Source of the DNA: a virus
DNA: 26,475 nucleotides
Virus record (IMG/VR): IMGVR_UViG_3300027881_000064
Coordinates: 1 to 26,475 of that record
Strand: one strand, 5' to 3'
Part shown: piece after piece, positions 2,131 to 26,475 of the stretch
How positions within the stretch are numbered: position 1 is the stretch's first letter
Layout: each line of letters begins with the position of its first letter
The notes under the pieces: generated by a model
Seen by the model: the letters and a program-made list of their open reading frames with translations, nothing else
Databases searched by the model: none
Told to the model about the DNA's origin: nothing
Position numbers and translations under genes: made by a program

Positions 2131-2133
2131 TGT

Positions 2134-2220: not shown

Positions 2221-2264
2221 GGACACATTTTGTAGGTTTTCGAGGCGAGGAGTATTTTAGTGCG

Positions 2265-2414: not shown

Positions 2415-2423
2415 GAGAGAGAA

Positions 2424-2681
2424 ATGAGACACACATCATTTGGTGACCCAGTCGTTGACTCGGTCGAGGATGACATTGGATTACTCGACGTGTTGCAGGA
2501 GGCCGATGGCCAGGTATACGCAATAGTTGAAGAAGACCCCGCGACAGGGAAGTTTGCATTTGATATCGTCAACAATGGCGACGGTGAAAGCCTCGTGACA
2601 TCGGACCCTATCTTTGACGATAAAAAGGCCGTCGAGGTTTACCTTGACGGCTTCGTTGAAGACATTCAGGATGGATGGTGA
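2424..2681 (+). CDS. Acidic hypothetical protein, 85 aa, C-terminus altered by recombination
   Basis: Unknown function. Very acidic (many D/E), soluble, beginning MRHTSFGDP, with a strong AGGAGAGAG ribosome site directly upstream. The stop codon and last two codons lie inside a 32-bp segment (2671-2702) identical to an internal piece of the ribonucleotide reductase gene at 14198-14229. The original C-terminus was therefore probably replaced or truncated. The protein now ends QDGW. Confidence 0.75.
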   Translation: MRHTSFGDPVVDSVEDDIGLLDVLQEADGQVYAIVEEDPATGKFAFDIVNNGDGESLVTSDPIFDDKKAVEVYLDGFVEDIQDGW

Positions 2682-2702
2682 ATTTGTTAAGACATTGCCA
2701 CA
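2671..2702 (+). repeat. 32-bp exact copy of an internal nrdJ segment
   Basis: Bases 2671-2702 are identical to 14198-14229, beginning ATGGATGGTGAATTTG and ending GACATTGCCACA. In the reductase gene this stretch is coding (residues 388-398, MDGEFVKTLPQ). Here it spans the end and stop of a different gene. A related 14-mer, GACATTC(A/G)GGATGG, lies just before the copy here (2661-2674) and just after it in the reductase (14231-14244). Confidence 0.95.
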
Positions 2703-2767
2703 CATGTGATTTAAACGGGGCGTAGCTTAGTCTGGCACGGAATTTGGTATTAAAGGAATTTAAACAA
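2682..2767. other. Non-coding stretch with recombination debris
   Basis: No gene is seen. The first 21 nt belong to the nrdJ-derived repeat. Next comes TTTAAACGGGG, a word also found at 18306-18316, and then GGGGCGTAGCTTAGTCTGG (about 2718-2736), which reads like the 5' acceptor and D-arm of a tRNA but has no matching anticodon arm, T-arm or 3' acceptor. Confidence 0.5.
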
Positions 2768-2821
2768 ATGAAGTGTGTAGTTAAGGTCGAAGAATCAGTT
2801 ACGAGGTTGACCGATGGATAA
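2768..2821 (+). CDS. 17-codon leader ORF or gene remnant
   Basis: ATG at 2768 is preceded by AAAGGA at a good distance and encodes MKCVVKVEESVTRLTDG before a TAA that overlaps the start of the following gene by 8 nt. It could be a translated leader coupled to the downstream gene. It could also be the cut-off N-terminus of a small phage protein family with a similar beginning. Too short to decide. Confidence 0.35.
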   Translation: MKCVVKVEESVTRLTDG

Positions 2822-3479
2822 GAACGACGACGGATCACCGCGGGGTGCGGGCGGGAAGGACACGAACCCGAAAGACGCTGTTGGCACAAAGAAATGGCGT
2901 CAAATAATGTGCATCCCGTTCGCCGTGTTGTGGGAAGTCGGCGTTGGTATGCTCGAAGGGGCTAGGAAATATGGTAGGCACAACTATCGCGTGTCGAAGG
3001 TCCGGGCGTCGGTATATGTTGAGGCCGCGATGGCTGGGCACTTGATGCCGTGGTGGGAAGGGGAGGATATCGACGAGGAATCGGGTTTGAACCATATCAC
3101 GAAAGCCATTTGCTCGTTGGTTGTGCTGCGTGACGCGATGATAACCGGTCAGTGGGTTGATGACAGGCCGCCGAAGATAGACATGGGCGTCATGCGCGAG
3201 AAAATGCAGGGTGCTGTTGATTCTATCTTTGAACGTCATCCGGTGGCTGTTGCGGCGTATCTGGAAGGTGATCAACGCACAGAAAATTGGGTGAAGTCGA
3301 TTGTCATTGAGCCCGACGTTAAACTACGGGCGCGTGCATTGAGTTTGTGGAGGAGTGGTTCGGCAATAGCAGATACTGAAACAGTGTTATTTGAACATCT
3401 CACCCACGACACCCAGAAATATTACCTTGAAAAGGCACGTGATGAAATTCATAGTGAGGATCGCTCGACAGACTCCTGA
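2814..3479 (+). CDS. dATP/dGTP diphosphohydrolase N-terminal domain protein (DUF5664-type)
   Basis: Residues 15-110 carry the hallmarks of the phage family now named dATP/dGTP diphosphohydrolase, N-terminal (formerly DUF5664). These are NPKDAVGTKKW (18-28), GARKYGRHNYR (49-59), HLMPWWEGEDID (76-87) and GLNHITKAICSLVVLRDA (91-108). Such proteins are expected to hydrolyse purine dNTPs and so shape the nucleotide pool; in Z-DNA (diaminopurine) phages a relative depletes dATP/dGTP. The C-terminal half (about 110-221) is not recognised and is charged and helical. A MazG-like gene follows two genes downstream, supporting a nucleotide-pool role. No PurZ is visible in this window, so a modified-base pathway cannot be claimed. 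Confidence 0.8.
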   Translation: MDKNDDGSPRGAGGKDTNPKDAVGTKKWRQIMCIPFAVLWEVGVGMLEGARKYGRHNYRVSKVRASVYVEAAMAGHLMPWWEGEDIDEESGLNHITKAICSLVVLRDAMITGQWVDDRPPKIDMGVMREKMQGAVDSIFERHPVAVAAYLEGDQRTENWVKSIVIEPDVKLRARALSLWRSGSAIADTETVLFEHLTHDTQKYYLEKARDEIHSEDRSTDS

Positions 3480-3609
3480 GAGCAAGGAGGCGTACCGGGT
3501 CGTTGCTTTTGCATCGACGTGGGCGCAGGTTTACGAGGTTGCGGGACAACATTTAAGGACGCGCGAACGCGTGGTTCAAATTTCAGAAAGTGGATATAGC
3601 AATGGATGA
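3442..3609 (+). CDS. Hypothetical protein, 55 aa
   Basis: Unknown function. ATG at 3442 is preceded by AAAGG at a suitable distance and gives a compact beta-rich protein beginning MKFIVRIARQ. The in-frame upstream ATG at 3391 lies deep inside the previous gene and adds a Thr/Pro-rich shadow sequence, so it is rejected. It overlaps the previous gene by 38 nt and the next by 8 nt. Confidence 0.65.
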   Translation: MKFIVRIARQTPESKEAYRVVAFASTWAQVYEVAGQHLRTRERVVQISESGYSNG

Positions 3610-4018
3610 TGGCGATTACGCAGCATTTGTCCGGTTGGGCAATTTTACGAAAGAGGTTATTGAGTCGAGTACACTCGGTCCGATGGGGTTGATGGGTGAG
3701 GCTGCGGAAGTCATGCAGGTGACTGAACGTCGTCTACAAGATCATTTGACCGCGAGCCGGATGGCCATCTCGGCTGGTAGTGTGGGTGACTATTTGAAAA
3801 AGGTAGTCATTCACGGGGACCAGTTGGATCGTGAGAAGTTGATCAAGGAATTGGGTGATGTCTTCTGGTACGCTCAGCACATTATGAACACGTTCTTGAT
3901 TGACTTCGAGGAAGTGCGGGCGGGCAACGTCGCAAAGCTTTGTGATCGGTATCCCGAACGATATGGGCCGGCTGAGGATTGGGGTGTTAAGGCTGAGCCT
4001 GGGTCCGGGGCGCGATGA
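3602..4018 (+). CDS. MazG-like nucleotide pyrophosphohydrolase
   Basis: All-alpha NTP pyrophosphohydrolase of the MazG/dUTPase superfamily, expected to cleave nucleoside triphosphates to monophosphate and pyrophosphate. The metal-binding signature is present: EXXE in GLMGEAAEVMQ (E33, E36) and EXXD in KELGDVFWYAQ (E83, D86). The roughly 40 residues between the two motifs (about 41-80) are longer than in the smallest MazG domains. A GTG at 3590 would add four residues; the ATG at 3602, overlapping the previous stop, is preferred. Probable functions are housecleaning of dNTPs or lowering ppGpp-type signals, both inferred from the family. Confidence 0.82.
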   Translation: MDDGDYAAFVRLGNFTKEVIESSTLGPMGLMGEAAEVMQVTERRLQDHLTASRMAISAGSVGDYLKKVVIHGDQLDREKLIKELGDVFWYAQHIMNTFLIDFEEVRAGNVAKLCDRYPERYGPAEDWGVKAEPGSGAR

Positions 4019-4281: not shown

Positions 4282-4300
4282 GTTAGTATAACTAAGTTAT
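4282..4300. promoter_or_regulatory. Palindromic operator candidate, copy A
   Basis: The 19-mer GTTAGTATAACTAAGTTAT contains the near-perfect palindrome ATAACT-A-AGTTAT. The same 19 bases occur in inverse orientation at 18238-18256, and a shorter copy (TATAACTAAGTTA) lies at 18268-18280. All three copies sit in intergenic gaps, here 70 nt ahead of the gene at 4371. A shared regulator is the simplest reading. Confidence 0.6.
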
Positions 4301-4370
4301 GATTTGTCATTGAAACATTGATTAACTAATTGCTAAGTATTCGAAACGTCAATCAGGTAACGAGGACGAC

Positions 4371-4820
4371 ATGCCAAGAGTAACTCATGTAAAACGCGCA
4401 CGTAAACCGATACCTTCGATAGGGGTCGAGGTGGGCGATTCTTACTACTGGTGGCAGTTTGCTTTCTCAAAAAGATCAGTGTCAAAGACACCTCCAAAAC
4501 CATCTCAGTTGACGCGTTCAGAATTCATGATCTCGTTGTATGAACTTCAGGAGGAGCAATCGTCGTTGACGATTGAGGATGCAGAGGATTTCGCATCACG
4601 TATTCGTGAGATTGCAGACGAGTGCGAGGAAAAAATTCAGAATATGCCTGAGTCGTTGCAATATGCGCCATCTGGTGAATTGTTGCAGGAACGTTCTGAG
4701 TCGATGAATGCATGGGCTGACGAGGTTGAGGAAATATTTGGCCGGTTCGACGATGAAATGTTGGAGGATGACGTAGACGATTTGTGCACCGAATTGCACG
4801 AGACAGAGGTGTCGTTGTGA
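4371..4820 (+). CDS. Conserved hypothetical phage protein, 149 aa
   Basis: The N-terminal region MPRVTHVKRARK, then GDSYYWWQFAF, SKTPPKPSQLTRSEF, matches a widespread hypothetical family of phages and proteobacteria in which 'GESYYWWKFR...SKTPP..SQLT.S.F' is typical (recalled from memory; function unknown). The C-terminal two thirds are strongly acidic and predicted helical, probably coiled coil (DECEEKIQNM, EVEEIFGRFDDEMLEDDVDDL). GAGG sits just before the ATG. It is the first gene after the palindrome-bearing gap and so probably begins a transcript. Confidence 0.85.
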   Translation: MPRVTHVKRARKPIPSIGVEVGDSYYWWQFAFSKRSVSKTPPKPSQLTRSEFMISLYELQEEQSSLTIEDAEDFASRIREIADECEEKIQNMPESLQYAPSGELLQERSESMNAWADEVEEIFGRFDDEMLEDDVDDLCTELHETEVSL

Positions 4821-4897
4821 TCAGTAATTTACTGTACGGTGGGACGCATTGCGTTGTTGCGTTTAAACATGCTTTGCGGTCACTTGTTTTGTTTTAA
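4817..4897 (+). CDS. Possible 26-aa peptide with GTGA overlap start
   Basis: A GTG start overlaps the previous stop in a GTGA arrangement and runs for 26 codons, with a GAGG about 7 nt upstream. The peptide (starting MISNLLYGG) has two mildly hydrophobic stretches. The start arrangement resembles the real genes around it, but the length gives little support. Otherwise the gap 4821-4966 shows no feature. Confidence 0.3.
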   Translation: MISNLLYGGTHCVVAFKHALRSLVLF

Positions 4898-4966
4898 TGT
4901 TCCTTGAGGCATATTGCCCGAGGATGAAGACGTGGTATGGACGTAGTTTTAGGAATGAGGTTTAGA

Positions 4967-5584
4967 ATGAGTATCATTGACGATTTCAAATGTAGGCAGG
5001 ATTGGAAAGACGGCGGGTACGAGTTCGAAGTTGTTGACGAGGATCATGTCTTATCTGTTCAAGATGCCTTTAAGGGTCTCGTTGATCACTTCAAGTCGAC
5101 CGTTTCAGGTAGGCAGTTCAGGGGGTCTGCGGCGCCTGAGAAGTGTCCAATTGATCTTGAAACACGTTATTGTCGTCTGTTGTGGGGATCTCAGGTTGTC
5201 ATGCGGGATGATCGAATGCATCGCGTTGGGCTAATGGATGGGATTGAACCTCGTATTGATATCGAGGAGAATCAGTCGCGGGTTGCAGGTGATGGATGGT
5301 TCGGTAAGAGTTCGTTGCCCGAGGGGCAAATGGGCGACGATATCATGTACGCTCGAGTCGGCGACCGTGGTCCGGACGTTGAGGCGTTTCGAGTGATCGG
5401 TGATCGCGTGAGTAATGTTAAGATGACGCGTGATGAACTCAATTCGTTGTACAGGGATAAGGAATATCTTAACGTTGGTCAGCACGCGACGATATTGGGC
5501 ATGGACTTTGCGAAAGCTGAGTCGCGAATTGCGAGTTATATATCTGACGAAAGTCACACTTTAAAGTACGAGGTAGACGAATGA
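4967..5584 (+). CDS. Hypothetical protein, 205 aa
   Basis: Unknown function and no recognised domain. ATG at 4967 follows a GAGG at 6-nt spacing and gives MSIIDDFKCRQDWKDG. In-frame ATGs at 4937 and 4955 would add up to ten residues and have weaker sites. The protein is acidic and soluble. The middle (GLMDGIEPRIDIEENQSRVAG) and C-terminus (KAESRIASYISDESH) show no metal-ligand clusters or transmembrane helices. It overlaps the next gene by an ATGA. Confidence 0.8.
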   Translation: MSIIDDFKCRQDWKDGGYEFEVVDEDHVLSVQDAFKGLVDHFKSTVSGRQFRGSAAPEKCPIDLETRYCRLLWGSQVVMRDDRMHRVGLMDGIEPRIDIEENQSRVAGDGWFGKSSLPEGQMGDDIMYARVGDRGPDVEAFRVIGDRVSNVKMTRDELNSLYRDKEYLNVGQHATILGMDFAKAESRIASYISDESHTLKYEVDE

Positions 5585-5853
5585 TTTGGGTTTATGGGTG
5601 GCTGGGAGGTTGTGCGTGTTTCGTCGCCGGGATGTATTGGGCCGGGAGGCATAGGCCGAAGGAGGCTTGGCAACATGATTTCATGACGGGAATGATGGTT
5701 GTGTTTCATGAAGGCGAGGTGGCTCGCAACCGTCAGTTTATGACGCACGAAAATCCTTACCCTCATGGGTCAGTTGATTGGCGCGCGTGGAACTTTGGAT
5801 GGAGTTGGATAGACAATCGTATTTCTGGGGATGAGGGCAAAGCGAAACAATGA
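5581..5853 (+). CDS. Membrane-anchored protein with RMF-like C-terminal motif
   Basis: Ninety residues. Positions 2-21 form one hydrophobic segment (VYGWLGGCACFVAGMYW), probably an inner-membrane anchor. Residues 45-78 read GEVARNR..THENPYPHGSVDWRAWNFGW, close to the 'G..A.......NPY..GS..W.AW..GW' pattern of ribosome modulation factor-like and CrpP-like small proteins found in many phages and proteobacteria. That assignment rests on motif recall. Such proteins can bind ribosomes, but the membrane anchor is not usual for RMF. It starts in an ATGA overlap with the upstream gene and overlaps the downstream start. Confidence 0.7.
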   Translation: MIWVYGWLGGCACFVAGMYWAGRHRPKEAWQHDFMTGMMVVFHEGEVARNRQFMTHENPYPHGSVDWRAWNFGWSWIDNRISGDEGKAKQ

Positions 5854-6041
5854 TGGAAACATTTAAATTTTTTCAAGGTGATCGATTGATTACAACGACT
5901 CTATTGACTCTTGATCAGGTTCAAACCTTAAAGGCTGAAGAGCCCGACGCCTACTGGACATATTGGCGTGCGGCTGAGTCTGGTGATTTGGTCGACATCG
6001 AAGGGCACACAGGTATCCGTGTTGAGTGGGATCGTGAGTAA
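5850..6041 (+). CDS. Hypothetical protein, 63 aa
   Basis: Unknown function. Starts at ATGATGG overlapping the previous stop; the second ATG at 5853 would do equally well. A small soluble protein with an aromatic patch (DAYWTYWRAAESGDLVDIEGHTG) and an acidic end. No cysteines or membrane segment are seen. Part of the run of overlapping small genes 4967-6246. Confidence 0.72.
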   Translation: MMETFKFFQGDRLITTTLLTLDQVQTLKAEEPDAYWTYWRAAESGDLVDIEGHTGIRVEWDRE

Positions 6042-6246
6042 CGTTCAACGATTGCGGGATTGTGAAAATGATCCTATGTGGGCGGACCATGCTGAGATCC
6101 CGAAGGCATGGTGTAAGGCTGCGGCTGACGAATTGATTGAGTTGCGTGATATATTAAAGAGTGTGCAAGGCTTGCTTAGGCAATACGGTGATAAACGTGA
6201 GAAAGTTGCTTATGACAAGATTGAAGCCTTGTTGAACAAGCCCTGA
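6034..6246 (+). CDS. Hypothetical helical protein, 70 aa
   Basis: Unknown function. GTG at 6034 overlaps the preceding stop (GTGAGTAA) and yields MSNVQRLRDCENDPMW; in-frame ATG 5968 lies well inside the previous gene and is rejected. The C-terminal 45 residues form an amphipathic helix pattern (ADELIELRDILKSVQGLLRQYGDKREKVAYDKIEALL), probably a coiled coil. It is the last gene before the main regulatory gap. Confidence 0.65.
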   Translation: MSNVQRLRDCENDPMWADHAEIPKAWCKAAADELIELRDILKSVQGLLRQYGDKREKVAYDKIEALLNKP

Positions 6247-6473
6247 TCCGCAGTTACATATCGTGTGTGCGCGTAAGGGGTTTTGTGCAAGAATAATTTT
6301 TGTGGACGTGGTTGTTGCAGTGTCAACAGTTCGTTTACAGGTTAATCAATTGGTTAATCAGTGATATTGCTGGATTCATATCACCGCATGTAAAACCGCA
6401 CGTGTGCGCACAATATAAGCGTACCGTTTGACAACTCTTTGAAAAGTGGGATTAGTCGATCTACACATCCCAT

Positions 6474-6503
6474 TTGACAACCTACCTTGTTTCGTTCTAT
6501 AAC
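6474..6503 (+). promoter_or_regulatory. Sigma-70-type promoter
   Basis: TTGACA (6474-6479), 18-nt spacer, TATAAC (6498-6503); shifting by one gives a 17-nt spacer and CTATAA. It lies 38 nt upstream of the small-terminase start and is the best -35/-10 pair in the window. Confidence 0.7.
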
Positions 6504-6517
6504 TCGCTTATAACGAA
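6491..6517. promoter_or_regulatory. Inverted repeat over the -10 box (operator candidate)
   Basis: TTCGTT-CT-ATAA, five-base centre CTCGC, TTAT-AACGAA. The two arms match apart from the CT bulge and cover the -10 element and likely transcription start, as expected for a repressor or activator site. Confidence 0.5.
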
Positions 6518-9031: not shown

Positions 9032-9298
9032 ATGTTGGTAAGACTTTGGAGCCGGGATTTGTTAATCGACGACGAGTCAGTTCGCAAGATGCAAGACCGC
9101 ATCCTCAGCACAATCAGCAAATCGCGTGACGAGCGCGAGTCAGTTTCGTACATGGTCGACGACGTGCGATTTTCCACGAAATTGCGTTTCCCAACAAAAA
9201 CGGTTGATGCGGAAACAATGTTCGAAGCACTCGGCTTCACCCTCGTCCGCGAGAAAAATGGTTCAGGCTCCACCCTGCGAACTTATGTGACCTTGTAA
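9032..9298 (+). CDS. Hypothetical protein, 88 aa
   Basis: Unknown function. ATG 9032 follows the AAGGA of the 43-bp leader; the longer in-frame reading from 8996 would translate the leader itself and is rejected. The protein is charged, with MLVRLWSRDLLIDDESVRKMQDRILSTISKS at the N-terminus and a mixed alpha/beta C-terminus (TMFEALGFTLVREKNGSG). No motif was recognised. Its own leader copy suggests separate control from terL. Confidence 0.75.
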   Translation: MLVRLWSRDLLIDDESVRKMQDRILSTISKSRDERESVSYMVDDVRFSTKLRFPTKTVDAETMFEALGFTLVREKNGSGSTLRTYVTL

Positions 9299-9307
9299 GG
9301 GTTTGTT

Positions 9308-9350
9308 AAGGTCCCTGTGTCATTATGCATAATCAGAACAAGGATACGGA
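9308..9350 (+). repeat. 43-bp direct repeat, copy 2 (leader of the gene at 9352)
   Basis: Exact copy of 8987-9029, placed 9 nt after the stop of the preceding gene and 1 nt before the next ATG. Palindrome ATTATGCATAAT at 9322-9333 and AAGGA at 9340-9344. Identity over the full length implies a recent duplication or selection on every base. Confidence 0.95.
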
Positions 9351-9351
9351 C

Positions 9352-9660
9352 ATGAAGATCATAGCACAATCAACTCACACCATGCACCTTCGACGCTTGA
9401 AACCTCGCGAACTTGAATTCAAGACATTGATCGCAGACATCAGGAACGCGAACATTGCGTTCCAGTCCCTCGAGTACAATACCTTCTACGCTGTACATAA
9501 TTGGACTGAGAAAGGCACAATCTTCATGTACATCGGTCGCCATAAGAATGGCCAATTGCATGTATGGTACCGCACGTCGATGCAGATGTGGTCGAGCTAT
9601 GGTAAGAACCTCAAGGCCGCAATCGACGGTGCGCAACGTGACGGGTGGCTTTATGCCTAA
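9352..9660 (+). CDS. Hypothetical protein, 102 aa
   Basis: Unknown function. ATG 9352 follows the leader repeat; in-frame ATG 9325 lies inside it and is rejected. Begins MKIIAQSTHTMHLRRLKPRE. The C-terminal half has aromatic beta-strand patterns (TFYAVHNW, GTIFMYIGRHKNGQLHVWYRTS). No membrane segment. It shares no obvious similarity with its neighbour at 9032 despite the identical leader. Confidence 0.75.
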   Translation: MKIIAQSTHTMHLRRLKPRELEFKTLIADIRNANIAFQSLEYNTFYAVHNWTEKGTIFMYIGRHKNGQLHVWYRTSMQMWSSYGKNLKAAIDGAQRDGWLYA

Positions 9661-9883
9661 AGAAATAAAACCTATATGCCGCAACTGCGCGCTAGCTGTA
9701 TGGCAAAGGACTGATGGTGGACGTATAAGGTCTCAGGTACCGGGACACTGTTCTTGGAAACCTCCTGAGATTGTGTACCCAATTCGAGTTAATAAATCGG
9801 TATTTACTCTTCCCTCCATATGGCGCGATGAGGACGAGGATTGCCCAGCCTTTGAAATGCCTAGGAACGAAATTGACGCATGA
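9653..9883 (+). CDS. Small Cys-containing (zinc-ribbon-like) phage protein
   Basis: Seventy-six residues. C9 and C12 (CRNC), C33 (GHCSWKPP) and C64 (DCPAFEM) match the pattern 'C..C..W.....G.C...PP......D.C..F' of a common family of small phage proteins thought to bind zinc (recalled pattern). ATG 9653 overlaps the preceding stop by 8 nt, with GGGTGG upstream. Function unknown; a DNA- or protein-binding role is only a guess. In-frame sequence upstream of 9653 lies inside the preceding gene. Confidence 0.72.
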   Translation: MPKEIKPICRNCALAVWQRTDGGRIRSQVPGHCSWKPPEIVYPIRVNKSVFTLPSIWRDEDEDCPAFEMPRNEIDA

Positions 9884-9904
9884 TGATCTTGTGTTATTGT
9901 GCAA

Positions 9905-10054
9905 ATGAAATTAACGCCCGAGCGTAGAATGCGCTTTCAGTTATTGGGGTATGCAGCAAGAACGTTGATTTCTACACACAATTTTTCAGGCTGTTTAAAC
10001 AGGTCGTACTATGAAAGAATTTTGGCACAATTTAACTCATGGCTTATCAGGTGA
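9905..10054 (+). CDS. Possible 49-aa basic protein
   Basis: A 49-codon frame starting MKLTPERRMRFQLLGYAARTL. The composition looks protein-like and it fills most of the gap before the gene at 10011, which it overlaps by 44 nt in another frame. No ribosome site is visible before the ATG, which weakens the case. Confidence 0.35.
   Translation: MKLTPERRMRFQLLGYAARTLISTHNFSGCLNRSYYERILAQFNSWLIR
9991..10002. promoter_or_regulatory. 12-bp palindrome before the gene at 10011
   Basis: CTGTTTAAACAG is a perfect palindrome 8 nt before the ATG and touching its ribosome site. It may be an operator or a chance palindrome; GTTTAAAC-type words recur elsewhere in the window. Confidence 0.3.
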
Positions 10055-10211
10055 TATCGCGAATATCCTGCCCAGGAAAATCGTCTGCCATTGCGCGATG
10101 CGAGTCCTTGCTCACGCGACGACGGGAAAACATTGCAAGACTGTTGTGCCCGATATTGCAGCCATGGAAGCTCTTGAACGATGGGACGAACCAAATGAAA
10201 TTAACGATTGA
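10011..10211 (+). CDS. Hypothetical protein, 66 aa
   Basis: Unknown function. The C-terminal half, RKIVCHCAMRVLAHATTGKHCKTVVPDIAAMEALERW, resembles a recurring small phage family of the form '..V..CAIR..A.ATTG....VVPEL..MDALKRW' (recalled, not searched). This supports the frame over the overlapping one beginning at 10039. AGG lies 8 nt before the ATG. It overlaps the next gene by 17 nt. Confidence 0.7.
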   Translation: MKEFWHNLTHGLSGDIANILPRKIVCHCAMRVLAHATTGKHCKTVVPDIAAMEALERWDEPNEIND

Positions 10212-10605
10212 CGACTCAATGAGCAGTATGGCCGCTGATCCGTGTGGCTTATTCGACGCATCAAAGCCATTGACGGCCTACGATAACCCAACCCTTGAAG
10301 ACGCAATCCGCAAACTCAAGCGTCGTCAGGACTTAATCCAAAATGTTATTGATGCACGTGAACCCGTGAACCTCAACGATGAACGCGCATCCCGTCAAGT
10401 CGACTCCCGTGAATGGACCCTTACAGACTGCCTGCAATCCCTCCTTCGAGAAAACAAGACGGCAAAGTGGGACAAGGCTCTTATTGTGCTTTCACATACC
10501 CATACTGGTATGCTCGAACTTGACTCCCGCATTGTCGGTTGCACGACGTTGGAAGCTAGAGGCCTACTTATGACAGAAATAAAACACGACATTAACAATC
10601 GATAA
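10195..10605 (+). CDS. Hypothetical protein, 136 aa
   Basis: Unknown function. The frame is open from 10039, but that part overlaps the better-supported gene at 10011; ATG 10195 gives MKLTIDDSMSSMAADPCG. A second possible start is ATG 10219. The middle (TLEDAIRKLKRRQDLIQNVIDARE) is a charged helix and the C-terminus (KALIVLSHTHTGMLELDSRIVGCTT) is mixed. No catalytic motif is certain; the HTH triplet at the end of SHTHTG is not in a known metal-site context. Confidence 0.7.
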   Translation: MKLTIDDSMSSMAADPCGLFDASKPLTAYDNPTLEDAIRKLKRRQDLIQNVIDAREPVNLNDERASRQVDSREWTLTDCLQSLLRENKTAKWDKALIVLSHTHTGMLELDSRIVGCTTLEARGLLMTEIKHDINNR

Positions 10606-10628
10606 AGGATTATTGAATATTGTTTCCC

Positions 10629-10799
10629 ATGAGCGATTACGCTTTACTGCGTCATACGATGCGCGCTGACGAAGACGTTGAAATACCCGACCGCGTCGTT
10701 GCACGTCTTGTTGATGCGGGACTCGTCCTGAAACGATATTGTTCCGATGGGGATTACATTTCCTTAACGAACAAAGGAAAAAGGTATATGGGAAAATGA
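10629..10799 (+). CDS. Small winged-helix-like protein, 56 aa
   Basis: A short gene reading MSDYALLRHTMRADEDVEIPDRVVARLVDAGLVLKRYCSDGDYISLTNKGKRYMGK. The pattern 'helix - RVVARLVDAGLV - strand - YISLTNKGKRYM' looks like the second half of a winged helix-turn-helix domain, as in small phage DNA-binding proteins. TTG 10620, with AAAGGA about 10 nt before it, could be the real start and would add three residues (MFP). Stop and next start overlap as ATGA. Confidence 0.68.
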   Translation: MSDYALLRHTMRADEDVEIPDRVVARLVDAGLVLKRYCSDGDYISLTNKGKRYMGK

Positions 10800-11146
10800 C
10801 TGTTAATTTCAATGCTGTTAGAATTCTTGTTATCGATGAACAGCCTCGCGATATCGATCATGATGGCAAACCATACGTCAACGTTGATGAAGGCGTTGAT
10901 ACAATCCTTTGCGTTGATCATGAGGGTAACGTGTACACATGGACGCACAAGGCTTCTGCACAAAACGCAAATCCGCGCAACCCCTCGTATTGGCCCCGTC
11001 GTCACTTCTCTCGTGGGATTCCGTTATTCCGTGACTATTGGAAATTCCTTTATAATCGACGTGAGCCGTTGGGTGCGCGATATCGTTCAATCGAGGCATG
11101 TAAAAAGACAACTGTCATGCCCCCAATCGGAGACAACGACCTATGA
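10796..11146 (+). CDS. Hypothetical protein, 116 aa
   Basis: Unknown function. ATG 10796 overlaps the preceding stop (ATGA) and has a purine-rich AAAGG region upstream; the longer frame from 10739 runs back over the previous gene and is rejected. Begins MTVNFNAVRILVIDE. It has an alternating strand pattern (DTILCVDHEGNVYTWTHKAS), then a basic C-terminal part (WPRRHFSRG, RYRSIEACKK). No known motif. Last gene before the portal promoter. Confidence 0.75.
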   Translation: MTVNFNAVRILVIDEQPRDIDHDGKPYVNVDEGVDTILCVDHEGNVYTWTHKASAQNANPRNPSYWPRRHFSRGIPLFRDYWKFLYNRREPLGARYRSIEACKKTTVMPPIGDNDL

Positions 11147-11224
11147 AAATCACATTGTCAGGAAAAGCCTTTCAGAAATCACACGGCGCCTAAAAGCAGC
11201 GATGAACGTAGATTAAGTCAACGC

Positions 11225-11253
11225 TTGCACGACGCATACCCAACATGTATGAT
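11225..11253 (+). promoter_or_regulatory. Sigma-70-type promoter for the portal unit
   Basis: TTGCAC (11225-11230), exactly 17 nt, TATGAT (11248-11253), ending 26 nt before the portal ATG, which has GAGGA at 11270-11274. The gap 11147-11279 otherwise holds only a 16-codon frame starting in an ATGA overlap at 11143. Confidence 0.6.
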
Positions 11254-11279
11254 CGGGGTTCTCCTAACTGAGGATCCCG

Positions 11280-12761
11280 ATGCCTGAAATTAATATAACT
11301 GATTGGCATGCCAACTATGCTGAGCGAACCGTCCAATGGGCGAAAATTCGTGATGTTATCGATGGCGAAGACAAGATAAAAAACCAAGGGCAGACGTACC
11401 TCCCCAAGCCTTCGGGCATGACGGGCAATAAGCAGTACGACGCCTACAAATTACGCACGGCATTTTACCCCATATGTGAAAGAACAATGCGCGGCCTTAC
11501 AGGCATGGTGTTTCGTCACGCGCCCGTCCTTGAAATACCTGAACGCATGGAGCCCATGCGCGAGAATCTCACTACCGATGGTTATTCGTTTGAGGTACTT
11601 GCTGAGGAAGTCGTTCGCGAGGTCCTCACCGTCGGTCGATATGGCATCCTGCCTGACTTCCCCGTGTACAATGAGGCCTCAAACGTCCTCCCGCATTTCG
11701 CAACGTATTTCGCGGAAGATATCATCAATTGGGAACAGGCCTTTATCGAAGGCAAGAAAGTCCTAACGCGCATCGTCCTGCGCGATGATATAGACAACAC
11801 CTTCGGTGACGATACCGTTCAGTACCTTGAGCTGATCCTTAATCAGGCGGGTCAATACGAGGTTCGTAAATGGAAGGTCGAGGTCAGTGAACAGCAATCA
11901 GTATCAGGAATCGGATCGACGAAAAATATATTCATGACGGAAGCTACTGTGCCCCTAATCAACGGTGCACCGCTTAATCGTATCCCATTCGTCTTCATCA
12001 ACACATTCGACCTACGGCCCGATATCGAAAAGCCGCCTTTCCTTGACCTCGCAAACGTCAACCTAGGCCACTATCGAAATTCAGCGGATTACGAGCACGC
12101 GTTGTACCTTACAGCACAGCCGACCGCATGGATCGCAGGTCAGCTTGATGAGACAAAGAAACCCACGTCGATTGGGTCAGGCACGATTTGGTATTTGCCC
12201 GAGGATACGAAAGTTGGCATGCTTGAATTCACGGGTGCGGGTGTTGAATCTCAACGTGCGGCGATGCAGGATAAAGAAACTCGCATGTCGTCACTCGGCG
12301 CCCAAATGATTAAGACTGAGTCGCGTTCGAACGAAACAGCCGAAACGGCCCGACTGCATGGCCGAGGTGAGACGTCTCTTTTGACGAATGCAGTAAACAT
12401 GTCAGCCGCTGGCTTGCGCATGGCCTTTCGTATTTCAGCCGAATGGGTTGGGGCAAAAGTAGAGGAAGTTGACGCGAAATTGAATAAGGACTTTGTTGAG
12501 ACGCGCCTCGCTCCTGAGGAAGTCAATGCAATCGTGAAGGCATGGCAGGGCGGTGCAATATCTCGCACGACGATGCATGAGAATATGCAATCAGGTGAAA
12601 TCATGCCACCTACGCGCACCGTCGAAGAAGAGAAAGAATTGATCGAAGAAGAGGGCGGCGGACTGTATGGCTTGCTGGCGCCTATCGAACCTGAACCCGC
12701 AGCTAATGAACCCGAAGAAGTTGAGGAGGGGGCTGGTAATCATCCCAACAATAATGGCTAA
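11280..12761 (+). CDS. Portal protein (DUF4055 type)
   Basis: Probable dodecameric portal through which DNA enters the head. The N-terminal WAKIRDVIDGEDKIK, then TYLPKPSGM and YDAYKLRTAFYPICERTMRGLTGMVFRHAP (roughly residues 20-85), match the DUF4055 family, whose 'RD.I.G...IK....YLP.P......Y..Y..RA.F.....T..GL.GM.F' pattern is typical of phage portals. Length 493 aa is usual. Residues about 340-390 form long helices, as in the portal stem and clip, and the C-terminus is Glu/Pro-rich and probably disordered (PEPAANEPEEVEEG). It has its own promoter and overlaps the next small gene by 8 nt. Confidence 0.85.
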   Translation: MPEINITDWHANYAERTVQWAKIRDVIDGEDKIKNQGQTYLPKPSGMTGNKQYDAYKLRTAFYPICERTMRGLTGMVFRHAPVLEIPERMEPMRENLTTDGYSFEVLAEEVVREVLTVGRYGILPDFPVYNEASNVLPHFATYFAEDIINWEQAFIEGKKVLTRIVLRDDIDNTFGDDTVQYLELILNQAGQYEVRKWKVEVSEQQSVSGIGSTKNIFMTEATVPLINGAPLNRIPFVFINTFDLRPDIEKPPFLDLANVNLGHYRNSADYEHALYLTAQPTAWIAGQLDETKKPTSIGSGTIWYLPEDTKVGMLEFTGAGVESQRAAMQDKETRMSSLGAQMIKTESRSNETAETARLHGRGETSLLTNAVNMSAAGLRMAFRISAEWVGAKVEEVDAKLNKDFVETRLAPEEVNAIVKAWQGGAISRTTMHENMQSGEIMPPTRTVEEEKELIEEEGGGLYGLLAPIEPEPAANEPEEVEEGAGNHPNNNG

Positions 12762-16267: not shown

Positions 16268-16729
16268 ATGTACATGCTAGGAAATAACTCACGCGCCGAA
16301 CTCGAAGGCGTCCACCCCGACCTTGTCGCGGTTGTTAAGCGCGCGATTGAAATTGTACCTGTTGACTTCACTGTTCTTGACGGTCTGCGCACACCTGAGG
16401 AGCAGGCTGAATACGTTCAGCGAGGCGTATCGAAGACGATGGCTTCAAAACACCTTCGACAGGAAGATGGGTTCGGTCACGCAGTCGACCTCGTGCCATT
16501 CATCAACGGTAAGGTACGTTGGGAAATGCAAGCGTGCATTCAAATCGCTCGCGAGATGGCTACAGCAGCCGCTGAACTAAAGGTGAGAATCGTTTGGGGA
16601 GGTGGATGGGCTGAGTTAGGCACCCATGACGCGGCTGAAATTGTCACCAGGTACATCGAACATAAACGCAAGTGGGGAGAACCCGTCTTCATTGATGGAC
16701 CCCACTATGAGCTTGCAACAATTTATTAA
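16268..16729 (+). CDS. M15-family peptidase, endolysin
   Basis: Probable zinc peptidase that cleaves peptidoglycan stem peptides (VanY/L-Ala-D-Glu peptidase type) and releases progeny. The motif S..H...GHAVD is present, with zinc ligands H62 and D74 and a final H146 in DGPHYEL. The opening SRAELEGVHPDLVAVVKRAIEI and DGLRTPEEQAEYV are typical of phage M15 endolysins. A six-residue insertion (RQEDGF) splits the usual SxHxxGxAxD spacing. No signal peptide is present, so a holin would be needed. Nearby membrane candidates are the tiny minus-strand genes at 17683-17958 and the protein at 20986. Confidence 0.9.
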   Translation: MYMLGNNSRAELEGVHPDLVAVVKRAIEIVPVDFTVLDGLRTPEEQAEYVQRGVSKTMASKHLRQEDGFGHAVDLVPFINGKVRWEMQACIQIAREMATAAAELKVRIVWGGGWAELGTHDAAEIVTRYIEHKRKWGEPVFIDGPHYELATIY

Positions 16730-16787: not shown

Positions 16788-17474
16788 ATGCCTGAGTCTC
16801 AACAGAAGAAGCGCAAAAAGAAAAGAGTAAAAACCAATGAGGCGATAGCGCCATTAAACGAAAAACAAGCTCAATACCTTAATTCCCTATCAACGACTAA
16901 CTGCGTCGTTGCAATCGGCCCAGCTGGAACGGGCAAAACGTTTCTCGCCTGCTCACACGCAGCAACAATGCTCGCGACAGGCCGAACAGAAAAAATCATA
17001 CTTACACGTCCCACAATTGGAGTTGCGAATAGGTCCCTCGGGTATTTGCCTGGCGGACTCGCGCAAAAGATGGGCCCTTGGGCTCGACCACTCGTTGATG
17101 CGTTTAAACGCATTCTCGGATCAAGTCAAGTTGATAATCTAATTGCGAAAAAGGTTATTGAAGTTGGGTCGCTTGAACATATGCGAGGCCTGACGTTCGA
17201 TGACTCAGTGATGATTATTGACGAGGCGCAGAACGCGACCACCATCGAACTAAAAGCATTTCTCACGCGCATTGGAATGCGGTCGAATGTTATCGTGTGT
17301 GGGGATATCAGTCAGTCTGACTTGCCGGGCACAAACGGCCTTAGCTTAGTCGTGACTGCGGTCAATAAAAAGCTTGTTGACGATGCGGAGTTAATTGAGT
17401 TCGATCATAGCGACGTAGTACGCTCAAAGCTATGCGCCCAATGGGCTGCTGCATTCGATAAACTTCAAACCTGA
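16788..17474 (+). CDS. phoH: PhoH-like ATPase
   Basis: P-loop ATPase of the PhoH family, common in phages; the cellular role is unsettled (RNA metabolism or phosphate stress). Walker A GPAGTGKT (44-51), Walker B VMIIDEAQN (141-149), ILTRP (71-75) and a CGD sensor (171-173) are all present. The N-terminus is strongly basic (SQQKKRKKKRVK), suggesting nucleic-acid contact. Length 228 aa covers the bare PhoH core. TTGGAG precedes the ATG. Its end overlaps the minus-strand gene at 17465 tail to tail by 10 nt, with no visible terminator between them. Confidence 0.93.
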   Translation: MPESQQKKRKKKRVKTNEAIAPLNEKQAQYLNSLSTTNCVVAIGPAGTGKTFLACSHAATMLATGRTEKIILTRPTIGVANRSLGYLPGGLAQKMGPWARPLVDAFKRILGSSQVDNLIAKKVIEVGSLEHMRGLTFDDSVMIIDEAQNATTIELKAFLTRIGMRSNVIVCGDISQSDLPGTNGLSLVVTAVNKKLVDDAELIEFDHSDVVRSKLCAQWAAAFDKLQT

Positions 17475-17686
17475 TGCGTCTTATAAGCAAAACGTAACGC
17501 GGCCTCTTCGATGTCTGCGGCTGCGCACCAGTAAGCGCGTGACATGGCCCAGTCCCCATCTCGGTCGGTAAGGAAATGTTTGGCTTCGCGTTTCGCGACT
17601 CGTTTTTCATGATCCGTGTCTTCTAAAACCGAATCTAATAACGCGCGTTCAATCACACCTAACGCTAAAGCCTGTTCTGCGCTCAT
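17465..17686 (-). CDS. Hypothetical protein, 73 aa (last gene of reverse cassette)
   Basis: Begins MSAEQALALGVIERALLDSVLED and ends AYWCAAADIEEAALRFAYKTHQV. This resembles a small phage family in which '...ALLD........A..WL........FWC..AGLD...VR..L' is typical (recalled). Helical and soluble. There is no Shine-Dalgarno before the start, but the ATG overlaps the stop of the upstream reverse gene (ATGA), so reinitiation is likely. It runs against phoH. Confidence 0.72.
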   Translation of the reverse strand: MSAEQALALGVIERALLDSVLEDTDHEKRVAKREAKHFLTDRDGDWAMSRAYWCAAADIEEAALRFAYKTHQV

Positions 17687-17808
17687 TGTGGGAGGGCGTT
17701 CAGTACCGTTGAAATGTGGTACATTGTGTCACTGAGGACGACTTTCATCGCCGGCAGGTAGAAGGCTGCGAAAACGCTTACTGATACTACTGTCCCAAAA
17801 ACTCTCAT
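17683..17808 (-). CDS. Tiny membrane peptide, 41 aa
   Basis: Reverse-strand frame with a good ribosome site (AAAGGAAGTGAC before ATG). Residues 2-20 (RVFGTVVSVSVFAAFYLPA) form one hydrophobic segment; the remainder is a short polar tail ending VLNALPQ. Its stop overlaps the start of the 73-aa gene by ATGA. It may be a signal-anchored peptide, a small holin-like protein or an exclusion peptide; size alone does not decide. Confidence 0.6.
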   Translation of the reverse strand: MRVFGTVVSVSVFAAFYLPAMKVVLSDTMYHISTVLNALPQ

Positions 17809-17835
17809 GTCACTTCCTTTGCTTCAATCATGTAC

Positions 17836-17841
17836 ATTATA
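17836..17841 (-). promoter_or_regulatory. Reverse-strand TATAAT box
   Basis: On the minus strand TATAAT reads from 17841 to 17836, 28 nt before the 41-aa gene. No clear -35 box lies 17 nt upstream, so this is a moderate promoter candidate within the reverse cassette. Confidence 0.4.
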
Positions 17842-17862
17842 CACGAAATTGTTAACGTGTGA

Positions 17863-17958
17863 TTAAATTCCTGCCATGTATCTTAGGAGGGGCTCAATTG
17901 CGAAAAAACCGATTGCACCTAAAACCGCTCCAATCAAAAGATTTTTCAATGTGTTCAT
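17863..17958 (-). CDS. Tiny membrane peptide, 31 aa
   Basis: Reads MNTLKNLLIGAVLGAIGFFAIEPLLRYMAGI: one glycine-rich hydrophobic helix (about residues 6-21) with few charges. GAGGG lies about 8 nt before the ATG on the minus strand, and the start is 4 nt after the previous reverse gene's stop. The in-frame extension to 18078 overlaps that gene and is rejected. The GxxxG-like spacing could allow helix packing. Confidence 0.62.
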   Translation of the reverse strand: MNTLKNLLIGAVLGAIGFFAIEPLLRYMAGI

Positions 17959-17962
17959 TGTA

Positions 17963-18154
17963 TTAACCCTCGAAATCACTGAATTTAAGAAAGCAACCTC
18001 GCAAAGAAAACCAAGCTGGTCGATCATTTTTAGATAGTAAAATTTCCACCGTATCGCCTGACTGAACCTTATCGCCACCTACTAACCAAACACCCGAAAC
18101 CTTTTTAGCTGTAGTTTCCTGACCATTAAGGTAGGCTTTGAAAATGTTTGTCAT
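17963..18154 (-). CDS. Hypothetical beta-rich protein, 63 aa (first gene of reverse cassette)
   Basis: Strong AAGGAGAA ribosome site. The sequence MTNIFKAYLNGQETTAKKVSGVWLVGGDKVQSGDTVEILLSKND reads as repeated short strands, like a small beta-barrel; the ending WFSLRGCFLKFSDFEG is unknown. Upstream on the same strand lies the palindrome ATTATGCATAAT with the same following order (C.GAACAAGGA, then ATG) as the two + strand 43-bp leaders. Confidence 0.72.
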   Translation of the reverse strand: MTNIFKAYLNGQETTAKKVSGVWLVGGDKVQSGDTVEILLSKNDRPAWFSLRGCFLKFSDFEG

Positions 18155-18173
18155 TGTTCTTCTCCTTGTTTCG

Positions 18174-18185
18174 ATTATGCATAAT
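18174..18185 (-). promoter_or_regulatory. ATTATGCATAAT palindrome, third copy
   Basis: Perfect 12-bp palindrome 20 nt before the reverse-strand start at 18154. On the minus strand it continues CGAAACAAGGAG; at 9013 and 9334 it continues CAGAACAAGGA. Same element, opposite strand; likely promoter -10 or operator. Confidence 0.6.
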
Positions 18186-18236
18186 ACAAAGAAATTATTT
18201 ACAAAACCTTAAATCTCAAAATAAAAATGCATAATC

Positions 18237-18280
18237 TATAACTTAGTTATACTAACCCCGGTTGAAATATAACTAAGTTA
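18237..18280. promoter_or_regulatory. Double operator candidate between divergent units
   Basis: TATAACTTAGTTATA (18237-18251) is a perfect 15-nt palindrome with a central base, and TATAACTAAGTTA (18268-18280) is a second, slightly incomplete copy 31 nt later. Both match the site at 4282-4300. They lie between the reverse cassette and the scaffold gene, so they could control both. Confidence 0.62.
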
Positions 18281-18310
18281 GGTGTACCTTCGGCGATGAA
18301 CGATGTTTAA

Positions 18311-18325
18311 ACGGGGAGACCCCGT
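18311..18325 (+). other. Small GC-rich hairpin in the scaffold leader
   Basis: ACGGGG-AGA-CCCCGT, a perfect 6-bp stem with a three-base loop, 40 nt before the scaffold ATG. It has no T run, so it is more likely an RNA-stabilising or processing element than a terminator. Confidence 0.45.
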
Positions 18326-18364
18326 GCGCGTTCTAGGCAGGAGCCGAAACCCAAGGAGCAAAAT

Positions 18365-19162
18365 ATGCCCAAGATGATTGTTAAAGATGCTGACGGGAAG
18401 GATATCGAGGTTGAAGTTAATCTCGACGCAACAAACCCTGATGTTAAACGACTGATTGACGAGGCAGTAGCCGCGTCAACAAAAGGATTGACTTCCAACC
18501 GGGACGAAATCCTGACTGAAAAGAAAGGGCTTCAGGAGAAGCTCGATGCACTCGGCAAGCAGTGGGACGGATTGGATCCCGAAGTGGTCAAGAATCTCGT
18601 CAACCGTATGAATACGGATGAGGAGACCAAATTGATTGCGGAAGGTAAAATCGACGAGGTAGTTGAAAAGCGAGTTCTCGCAATGAAGACAGACCTTGAA
18701 GCACGCCTCGCAGCCGCGACCGAGTCACTGACTACGCTCGAAGGAAAGAATGTATCGTTGTCCGACAAGGTAAAAAATCTCGTAATTGACGGGATGGTTC
18801 GCCAAGCCGGATCTGAGCTGAAAATTCTGCCTACCGCATATGATGATGCAATTCATCGCGCAAAGCGGCACTTTCAACTCGACGACAATGACCATCCAGT
18901 AGCTCGAGATGACGCAGGCACTTTGCTGTTTGGTAAAGACGGAAAGTCGCCCTTGTCGCCGAATGAATGGCTCGAAGGCATGAAGGAGACGGCACCACAT
19001 TGGTTCCCGGCACCTTCTGGTGGTGGAGCTGGCGGTGGATCGGGCGGTAGTACAGGTGGTGGTTTCACAATCTCCCGGGAGGATGCGCGTAATCCGCAGA
19101 CTTACCAGGTGACAAAGGAAGCTGCTGCAAAGGCTGGTCAAACGATGCAAATCGTTGACTAA
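18365..19162 (+). CDS. Capsid scaffold-like protein
   Basis: Probable internal scaffold that guides coat assembly. It is placed directly upstream of the coat gene, is acidic and mainly coiled coil (KKGLQEKLDALGKQW, AMKTDLEARLAAATESLTTLEGKNVSL), and has a Gly-rich linker (about 219-233, SGGGAGGGSGGSTGGG) before a short conserved-looking tail (FTISREDARNPQTYQVTKEAAAKAG). The start is supported by CCCAAGGAGC. Length 265 aa fits. It could instead be a fused assembly protease or minor capsid protein, but no Ser-protease motif is seen. Confidence 0.8.
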   Translation: MPKMIVKDADGKDIEVEVNLDATNPDVKRLIDEAVAASTKGLTSNRDEILTEKKGLQEKLDALGKQWDGLDPEVVKNLVNRMNTDEETKLIAEGKIDEVVEKRVLAMKTDLEARLAAATESLTTLEGKNVSLSDKVKNLVIDGMVRQAGSELKILPTAYDDAIHRAKRHFQLDDNDHPVARDDAGTLLFGKDGKSPLSPNEWLEGMKETAPHWFPAPSGGGAGGGSGGSTGGGFTISREDARNPQTYQVTKEAAAKAGQTMQIVD

Positions 19163-19188
19163 ACTGAGGCTCTAAAAACCGTCACTGA

Positions 19189-19245
19189 GGTTACGCTCGT
19201 CGTAAGTAAAGTGGCAACCAAGAACCGCGCGACGAGCGCATAACC
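19189..19245 (+). other. Long stem-loop ahead of the coat gene
   Basis: GGTTA-c-GCTCGTCG (19189-19202) pairs with CGACGAGC-gca-TAACC (19230-19245), loop 27 nt, ending 14 nt before the coat ATG with AAGG between. It could be a partial terminator setting the scaffold:coat ratio or an mRNA-stabilising 5' end. Confidence 0.5.
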
Positions 19246-20985: not shown

Positions 20986-21306
20986 ATGGACCCATTATCG
21001 ATTTCTTGGCCTGCAGCGATTGCTGTTATCGGGTCAGTTGTGGCTTTAACATTTGGAGTTATAAAAGTAATGTCGCAGGGTAAAGCCCTCGTCACGACTG
21101 ATACCTTGCAAAAGGAACACGAGCATCTTAGCGAAAGGGTGCGTGCTGTAGAAACACAAATGGCAACTCTTGAGACTGATTTGTCGGGTCTTGTAACAAC
21201 TCAAATTAATGACTTGAAAGGCGACATCAATCGCTTAGACACAAAAATAGACACGATGGTAAAGGAAGTCATCGGCGCTCTTGCATCACTAAAAAATAAA
21301 GGTTAA
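20986..21306 (+). CDS. Membrane plus coiled-coil protein, 106 aa
   Basis: Residues 8-28 (WPAAIAVIGSVVALTFGVIKV) form one transmembrane helix. Residues 42-106 are a long coiled coil (LQKEHEHLSERVRAVETQMATLE, LKGDINRLDTKIDTMVKEV). This topology is seen in holin-like XkdX/BhlA-type and inner-membrane spanin proteins, as well as in many unknown phage proteins. CTGGAG lies upstream of the ATG. Together with the endolysin gene it is one of the better lysis-accessory candidates here, but no family assignment is possible. Confidence 0.75.
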   Translation: MDPLSISWPAAIAVIGSVVALTFGVIKVMSQGKALVTTDTLQKEHEHLSERVRAVETQMATLETDLSGLVTTQINDLKGDINRLDTKIDTMVKEVIGALASLKNKG

Positions 21307-25084: not shown

Positions 25085-25726
25085 ATGACCCGGAAAAAGG
25101 TATTACTAGCCTTACCTAATTTACACTGGATACATAAACTTGTAATGGCCAAGGCTCTGGCTATACTACAGGACAAACGGTATCACGTGATACTCCAGAT
25201 GCCGAGCAACAAGCCTTTCGAAGCTACTCTGCAAGATTGTGTAGACTTATTCATTGAAGGCTCTTACGATTACTGGCTTAGTATAGACGCTGACAACCCC
25301 CCTGAAAACAACCCCTTAGACCTTATCGAATTGGATAAGGACGTCGTGGGTTGCCCCACACCCATATACCATAATACTAGAAACGGTGAACGCCCTGTGT
25401 ATTGGAACGCTTACCAGTTTGATCAAGCCACCGGTCTTTATCGAGAGTGGCCTTGCCGGGAGGGTTTGCAGAAAGTAGACGCCATAGGTACGGGGTGTTT
25501 TGTAGCGGCGCGAAGAGTATTTGAACACAGTGACCTTAGATACGGCGCGTTCCAACGTAAGTGGAATAAAGGGCGAGTTGAGAGAGGCAATGACTTAGCT
25601 TTCTGCGAGAGGGCGACTGAGGCGGGTTTCTCAATACACGCTCATTTTGATTACTTGGCAGAGCATATGGTAGAGGTGCCTCTGAATGAGATAACACGCG
25701 GTTTTTCGGAGATGCATAATGGCTGA
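25085..25726 (+). CDS. Glycosyltransferase-like protein (GT-A fold)
   Basis: Opens KKVLLALPNLHWIH and continues to YDYWLSIDADNPPENNP (61-77), where D68-A-D70 is a DxD motif for metal and nucleotide-sugar binding. Then VVGCPTPIYHN and VDAIGTGCFVAARRVF follow, ending in GNDLAFCERATEAGFSIHAHFDY, the usual order of acceptor-loop and C-terminal elements in family-2-type glycosyltransferases. Length 213 aa is short but matches phage versions. Substrate unknown; it may decorate virion protein, DNA or host surface sugar. It overlaps the following gene by 8 nt. Confidence 0.75.
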   Translation: MTRKKVLLALPNLHWIHKLVMAKALAILQDKRYHVILQMPSNKPFEATLQDCVDLFIEGSYDYWLSIDADNPPENNPLDLIELDKDVVGCPTPIYHNTRNGERPVYWNAYQFDQATGLYREWPCREGLQKVDAIGTGCFVAARRVFEHSDLRYGAFQRKWNKGRVERGNDLAFCERATEAGFSIHAHFDYLAEHMVEVPLNEITRGFSEMHNG

Positions 25727-26475
25727 TACACCATGGGGAGGTGGCGGAGATGCTAACCCTGATAAGCTGTACGTTCAGAGCGGTCAGTTCAGTGCAACAC
25801 TGAAAACCTCTAGGGATATATCTTCGCTTTCTGGCAATAACGAAGGAATGGATTGGGACGGCACTAATACTCCCTGGGTGGGTGATGGTACTGCTAACAA
25901 GCTCTTTTTACAAAGTGGACAGTTCAGCGCAACCCTAAAAACCTCCTTTGTTACTAGTTCAATAGACAACGGACCTAGAGATATTACGTGGGACGGAACC
26001 AACACCCCGTGGGTTGGTCAAGTCGATGATAAGCTGTACTTACAGAGTGGGCAATTCAGTGCTACTCTTAAAACCTCCCTGAGTATTGGTGGAGTAGACA
26101 CGGTACCAGACGGTATATCTTTTGATGGCACTAACACACCTTGGGCGGGCAACAGTGCTAACAAATTGTACTTACAGAGTGGGCAATTCAGTGCTACTAT
26201 CAAAACCTCTTTAGGGATTGGCGGAATAGACGTTACGCCTAATGACGTATCGTGGGACGGAACCAACACTCCTTGGTGTGGAAGTAGTGCTAACAAATTG
26301 TACCTACAGAGTGGGCAATTCAGTGCTACTCTTAAAACCTCAACAGCTATTGGAGGCATAGACGGAGACCCAACGGGTATAACTACCAGTGATGTGAATG
26401 CTAGGTTAGGTATTCCGGATGTGTTTACTGGAACAGCCGCTCAAACCCTTCCAGCGCTTGAACAGCTTGCAACTG
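25719..26475 (+). CDS. Tandem-repeat virion protein, 3'-partial
   Basis: Open from ATG 25719 to the right window edge, so the end is missing. The protein consists of five repeats of 44-45 residues with consensus D(I/V)(S/T)WDGTNTPW.G...KLYLQSGQFSATLKTS..IGGID. Copies of the QSGQFSATLKTS core start at nt 25776, 25911, 26043, 26175 and 26307, that is 135, 132, 132 and 132 nt apart. The W/D-rich, four-strand-like unit suggests a beta-propeller or beta-solenoid, probably a tail or host-contact protein. After the repeats comes TTSDVNARLGIPDVFTG, a different domain that is cut off. Confidence 0.8.
   Translation, partial: MADTPWGGGGDANPDKLYVQSGQFSATLKTSRDISSLSGNNEGMDWDGTNTPWVGDGTANKLFLQSGQFSATLKTSFVTSSIDNGPRDITWDGTNTPWVGQVDDKLYLQSGQFSATLKTSLSIGGVDTVPDGISFDGTNTPWAGNSANKLYLQSGQFSATIKTSLGIGGIDVTPNDVSWDGTNTPWCGSSANKLYLQSGQFSATLKTSTAIGGIDGDPTGITTSDVNARLGIPDVFTGTAAQTLPALEQLAT
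25764..26370 (+). repeat. In-gene tandem repeat, about 132-nt period, five copies
   Basis: CAGAGTGGGCAATTCAGTGC recurs exactly at 26043, 26175 and 26307, with diverged versions at 25776 and 25911. The last three copies are most alike, consistent with recent expansion by unequal recombination. Confidence 0.9.

Follow-up and report, generated by a model that had tools for sequence, protein, structure and literature searches.

A minus-strand island of exchangeable small genes and a group-wide set of candidate operators in a Nanhaivirus-like phage fragment

The morons of lambdoid phages are small accessory genes that have their own promoter, run counter to the late operon or independently of it, and vary among relatives; in the strict sense, a moron is an insert in a prophage-type genome. 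Cro/CI-type operators and the stoperators of mycobacteriophage L5, which are dispersed repressor sites, share a second arrangement, in which short palindromes occur many times per genome and are paired with a small HTH protein. The DNA studied here, a stretch of 26,475 nucleotides from an IMG/VR virus record (hereafter, the window), covers part of the genome of a Nanhaivirus-like siphophage. The matches to its head region are Dinoroseobacter phages R5C and R26L and Pseudanabaena phage Pan1, which are all assigned to Nanhaivirus. Published descriptions call these phages lytic or report no lysogeny markers in them (PMC5454422, PMC11806900), the latter being the case for R26L (PMC11806900). A term search of the R5C and R26L papers found no description of gene control in these phages and no mention of promoters or operators.

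An opposite-strand island of small genes lies directly before the scaffold gene in 19 contigs of the group, a count that includes the window and contigs beginning or ending inside the interval; in roughly eight further contigs whose MCP is related, our scan showed either no such block or another arrangement. The islands of relatives hold one to four small genes from several unrelated protein sets. R5C, R26L, and Pan1 resemble the window in locus, in strand relation, in encoding small hypothetical proteins, and in having a palindrome in the divergent intergenic region (Table 1), but they differ from it in carrying other proteins, none of them having orfA to orfD, and in having no membrane micropeptides annotated at the locus. 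The comparison indicates that the position of the island is fixed while its cargo is exchanged among relatives. The initial annotation had called the window's island the only minus-strand coding block, which holds for this fragment as far as examined, but complete relatives carry about four such islands. Long minus-strand frames at 25784-26359 of the window are mere antisense, because the start of a plus-strand gene of 132-bp repeats (LYLQSGQFSATLKTS...) covers 25719-26475. Further opposite-strand islands of small genes were seen in R5C (9154-12213, 18085-18948, and 44767-44907), Pan1 (1862-3853 and 5533-6425), and R26L (69824-70246 and 75827-79298), most of them with the same palindrome at the divergent head.

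Table 1. Coordinates of the island, its candidate control elements, and corresponding features in relatives
Feature	Genome	Position or gene	Strand	Remarks
phoH	window	16788..17474	+	left border; Pfam PhoH 5e-64
orfD	window	17465..17686	-	73-aa acidic helical protein; starts within ATGA overlap with orfC stop
orfC	window	17683..17808	-	41-aa single-helix membrane micropeptide; SD-like AAGGAA
Possible internal orfC-orfD promoter	window	17836..17863	-	ATCACA-16-TATAAT, 10/12 consensus; weak, chance-level scan
orfB	window	17863..17958	-	31-aa single-helix membrane micropeptide; SD GAGG
orfA	window	17963..18154	-	63 aa, predicted small beta-rich protein; ATG, SD AAGGAG
Putative operator, copy 1	window	18237..18251		TATAACTTAGTTATA, exact
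Putative operator, copy 2	window	18268..18282		TATAACTAAGTTAGG, 2 mismatches, 31 bp from copy 1
Capsid scaffold gene	window	18365..19162	+	right border, divergent; 48% identity to R5C "head scaffolding protein" of NC_041921; Phage_scaffold 3.6e-07, slightly below cut-off
Further putative operator	window	4287..4301		1 mismatch, before plus-strand ORF at 4371
Further putative operator	window	6498..6512		exact, TATAACTCGCTTATA, before plus-strand ORF at 6541
Island	R5C (KY606587)	gp48, gp49	opposite	phoH-scaffold interval
Island	Pan1 (ON968452)	gp19, gp20	opposite	phoH-scaffold interval
Island	R26L (PP882867)	gp94	opposite	phoH-scaffold interval
SSB-tailed island proteins	contigs L001; L002; L008; L013; L016; L017; L107	4441-4686; 3492-3734; 5378-5650; 2528-2857; 2218-2532; 4614-4901; 2543-2860	- (all)	
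HTH gene	R5C; Pan1; R26L; L008 genome; L127	gp70; gp39; gp73; 38986-39219; 18989-19219		R5C, Pan1, R26L, and L127: annotated only as hypothetical

The four minus-strand ORFs that had been proposed between phoH and the scaffold gene are present, with the tight spacing and the ribosome sites described for the first three. The orfB start lies 4 nt past the orfA stop, so that its SD overlaps the end of orfA; orfC and orfD share 4 nt at their stop and start, and the 3' end of orfD converges on that of phoH with a 10-bp overlap. The two single-helix membrane peptides were likewise borne out, orfB and orfC each having one strongly hydrophobic stretch (best 19-residue Kyte-Doolittle values of 2.18 and 1.96; orfA, 0.59; orfD, 1.02). 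Structure models were all-beta for orfA (low confidence, pLDDT 61) and helical for orfD (pLDDT 71, counted as low confidence), and Foldseek searches with the two models gave no meaningful match. Under a codon model built from 13 clear window genes, usage z scores were 3.3, 2.25, 1.16, and 4.28 for orfA to orfD, and the minus frame had the top score of the six frames for orfA, orfB, and orfD; codon usage in orfC is neutral and not distinctive. The chance of an equally long open run is 0.014 for orfA, 0.12 for orfB, 0.06 for orfC, and 0.007 for orfD; therefore, length alone backs only orfA and orfD. Codon usage supports orfA as a genuine gene and weakly favors orfB, the weakest of the four.

The closest relative, an 83.7-kb IMG/VR contig (3300032272_000006, here L008; MCP, 83% identity; PhoH, 72%), has homologues of orfC and orfD in the same place and order, with a 4-nt overlap that reads GTGA instead of the window's ATGA. 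Its orfD homologue (4735-4962, minus strand, 75 aa) is 43% identical overall, with an alignment score of 151 (shuffle mean, 25; standard deviation, 4.6). Codon changes between the two number 21, 20, and 42 at positions 1, 2, and 3, and because they fall mostly on third positions, orfD evolves as protein-coding DNA. The orfC homologue (4959-5102, minus strand) is a 47-aa membrane peptide (MKYGIAVVMVAFFASYYLPS...) whose membrane stretch aligns with that of orfC through the common core VVxVxxFAxxYLP, with a score of 48 that exceeds the maximum of 43 from 2000 shuffles. The comparison argues that orfC and orfD are real genes. In place of orfB and orfA, L008 has ORFs of 65 and 90 aa, the latter ending in an SSB-like tail; these were considered as relatives of the window's orfA and orfB and rejected as unrelated on comparison, the ORF in the orfB position being soluble. 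The palindrome pair is also present in L008, which differs from the window in having a good TTGACA -35.

Homology searches beyond L008 were negative. Pfam and PHROGs had no match at E below 0.1 for any of the four proteins, nothing there rising above chance (the one PHROG match of orfB, to a 'membrane protein' moron family at 0.18, was at chance level); orfA and orfD had nothing above chance in NCBIfam, and tblastn of each protein against 50,697 phage records gave no convincing match, with none for orfB. No orfA was found in 25 of 25 relatives searched or in a scan of a viral contig set. A search with the window and L008 orfD pair returned L008 as the sole match among viral contigs and no match in a genome contig scan. 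The gene order is kept for orfC-orfD, overlap included, in L008, and not for orfA and orfB, for which no relatives were detected. The leader of orfA, AAGGAGAAGAACAATGA (window 18151-18169), is identical to that of the L008 orfC homologue (5099-5117), although the genes are unrelated, and may be a trace left by gene exchange at ribosome sites.

The inverted repeat at 18237-18282 consists of two copies of a 15-bp palindrome, TATAAS-NNN-STTATA, that recurs across the group. With at most 1 mismatch allowed, the copies number 7 in R5C, 13 in Pan1, 8 in the L008 genome, and 14 or 15 in R26L, according to how the ends of the record are handled; the window has 3. Neither of two control palindromes had a match in the R5C, Pan1, R26L, and L008 genomes, one control had 2 matches in the window, which is AT-richer, and the reversed pattern had 0 matches. 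By the annotation tables, 34 of 34 listed sites in R5C, Pan1, and R26L are intergenic or at most 5 bases from a gene end. The palindrome heading the island forms the -10 element of a TTGAC[AG]-N17-TATAA/TTATAA promoter in L008, Pan1, and R26L, and several other sites have the same layout. We consider the palindromes to be a phage-wide set of candidate operators with dispersed sites at promoters. The promoter-like elements and operator region of the initial annotation survive in part: the palindrome pair belongs to this phage-wide set, but a sigma-70 scan of the window gave 3 matches versus 1.9 expected, no excess over chance. Similarly, the claim that the cassette has its own promoter is clear in L008, Pan1, and R26L, while the window has the operators without a good -35; because no TTGAC lies 17 bp from the pair in the island direction, the island promoter of the window is weaker or elsewhere placed. 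For the phage of the window, this missing -35 is the weakest point of the operator model.

A solitary opposite-strand HTH gene, situated in the interval that separates the structural block from the replication block, encodes a candidate regulator. Its small product has a conserved recognition-helix region, SN[YW]RN.RQ; the R26L protein matches Pfam HTH_19 at 1.9e-05, below the cut-off, and of 11 contigs of 35 kb or longer to which a profile was applied, 10 have the gene. The palindrome (at most 1 mismatch) lies 31 to 37 bp upstream of the gene start in R5C, R26L, and three contigs (G006, G010, and G016), about 35 bp upstream with 2 mismatches in Pan1, and 31 to 73 bp upstream in L008, depending on the choice of start codon; it is also upstream of the gene in G001. 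An HTH gene with the palindrome at a set upstream distance matches the arrangement of Cro-type proteins that regulate their own gene. The gene was not found within the 26-kb window fragment, and we infer that the phage from which the fragment derives would carry it. The small Cro-like HTH protein probably binds the palindrome. That the palindrome is instead the site of a host regulator is improbable: in its favor, a 70-kb contig (G014) has palindromes and no HTH match and two others (G002 and G011) have the HTH gene and hardly any palindromes, but against it, Dinoroseobacter phages share the site with a phage whose record names Pseudanabaena as host, and its fixed distance from the HTH gene is typical of autoregulation. 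The candidate system resembles Cro/CI-type operators and L5 stoperators in combining a small HTH protein with short palindromes present at many places in each genome, and in its autoregulation layout, and appears to differ from them in having sites at the promoters of many units and no recognized lysogeny genes. This newly recognized candidate regulon is the more interesting part of the finding. The locus offers a concrete, cheaply testable candidate regulator-operator pair together with a short list of small putative effectors.

The reading that we favor, with somewhat better than even confidence, is that of an accessory host-takeover island under a Cro-like repressor. In this model, the island, at its conserved site, would be transcribed away from the head genes, and the paired 15-bp operators, which coincide in part with the -10 of a host sigma-70 promoter in relatives, would govern its start. 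Host RNA polymerase would read the island early, at once; later, while the other strand is used to make the head genes, the phage's Cro-like HTH protein would shut off this island along with its sister islands. The island would encode small effectors aimed at the host, and these would be swapped among phages. The retained core would be orfC-orfD, two proteins joined by translational coupling, one a micropeptide that crosses the inner membrane once and the other its small, acidic, helical partner in the cytosol; orfA, a small beta protein, and orfB, a membrane micropeptide, would be phage-specific cargo ahead of it. Because of this coupling and their co-conservation, orfC and orfD most likely act together at the inner membrane; superinfection exclusion or altered membrane function would be the likeliest effect, a tentative suggestion.

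Other accounts of the cassette have to be weighed against this one. The term 'moron' used in the initial annotation fits loosely, in that an accessory island at a fixed site beside an operator region has changing cargo, its content being swapped between close relatives at one site; unlike lambdoid morons, however, this is an old, fixed, operator-headed locus and not a recent insert, its promoter has a phage-wide operator, and the group is described as lytic. More specifically, the two membrane peptides might serve superinfection exclusion or anti-defense, blocking DNA entry or disarming a membrane-acting host defense with orfA and orfD as cytosolic partners. The early-type control seen in relatives, the membrane micropeptides, and the variable cargo at a fixed locus all fit such a role, which we nonetheless regard as possible rather than likely, given that L008 keeps only one of the two membrane peptides and that the proteins have no family match in Pfam, PHROGs, or NCBIfam, including none to known exclusion proteins at E below 0.1 in Pfam and PHROGs.

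A holin/antiholin or lysis-timing module working with a nearby endolysin, also raised by the initial annotation, would fit an M15 peptidase gene (16268-16729) within 1 kb and the single-helix character of orfB and orfC. We rejected it as very unlikely on the grounds of strand and of replacement in relatives: the island lies on the opposite strand from this endolysin-like gene, with phoH between them, and has an early-type promoter in relatives; relatives with a neighboring N-acetylmuramidase carry soluble island proteins here; a soluble ORF replaces orfB in L008; the two membrane peptides are kept together in no relative seen; and the window has a separate coiled-coil membrane protein at 20986-21306 (DUF2730-like, slightly under the cut-off). 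Finally, only orfA and orfD, and perhaps orfC, might be genes, with orfB a chance hydrophobic frame and orfC-orfD served by a promoter of their own. The length of orfB is within reach of chance, it has no homologue that we found, and a TATAAT box lies ahead of orfC, but orfB has an SD, a 4-nt gap to orfA, and the best score of six frames, and we consider this account doubtful.

Under the favored host-takeover reading, an easily missed micro-gene block would be part of a conserved, exchangeable, and regulated locus in a marine and freshwater phage group. More speculatively still, the phoH-scaffold site may be a bay that is governed by a lytic Cro-like regulon and whose cargo is host-takeover peptides. 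The DDEIPF-tailed proteins of relatives might there commandeer or inhibit the repair and replication proteins that bind SSB, and the window's membrane micropeptide and its cytosolic partner would have a comparable anti-host role at the membrane. In seven relatives, island proteins terminate in an acidic tail of SSB type (DDEIPF, DVEIPF, DDIPF, DEEIPF, or DDEIPY). Elsewhere in the L008 genome, just two plausible proteins share such an end, a canonical SSB (74274-74729) and a Pam3_Gp34-like protein (49446-50324), one further match looking spurious; because such ends are so few, the tail looks like SSB mimicry.

A second palindrome, GTTTAAAC, mostly in the form CGTTTAAACG, was observed in the window (4861, 9993, 12864, 17102, and 18305) and in relatives; a search of the phage literature for it found nothing relevant. 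It occurs 16 to 25 times per genome in R5C, Pan1, R26L, and L008, versus 0.3 to 0.7 expected, about every 3 to 5 kb and both inside and between genes. Its spacing is more even than random (R26L: CV, 0.37, with 0 of 5000 simulations as even; Pan1: P, 0.004). The window also encodes, at 751-2130, an RtcB RNA ligase (Pfam, 8e-128).
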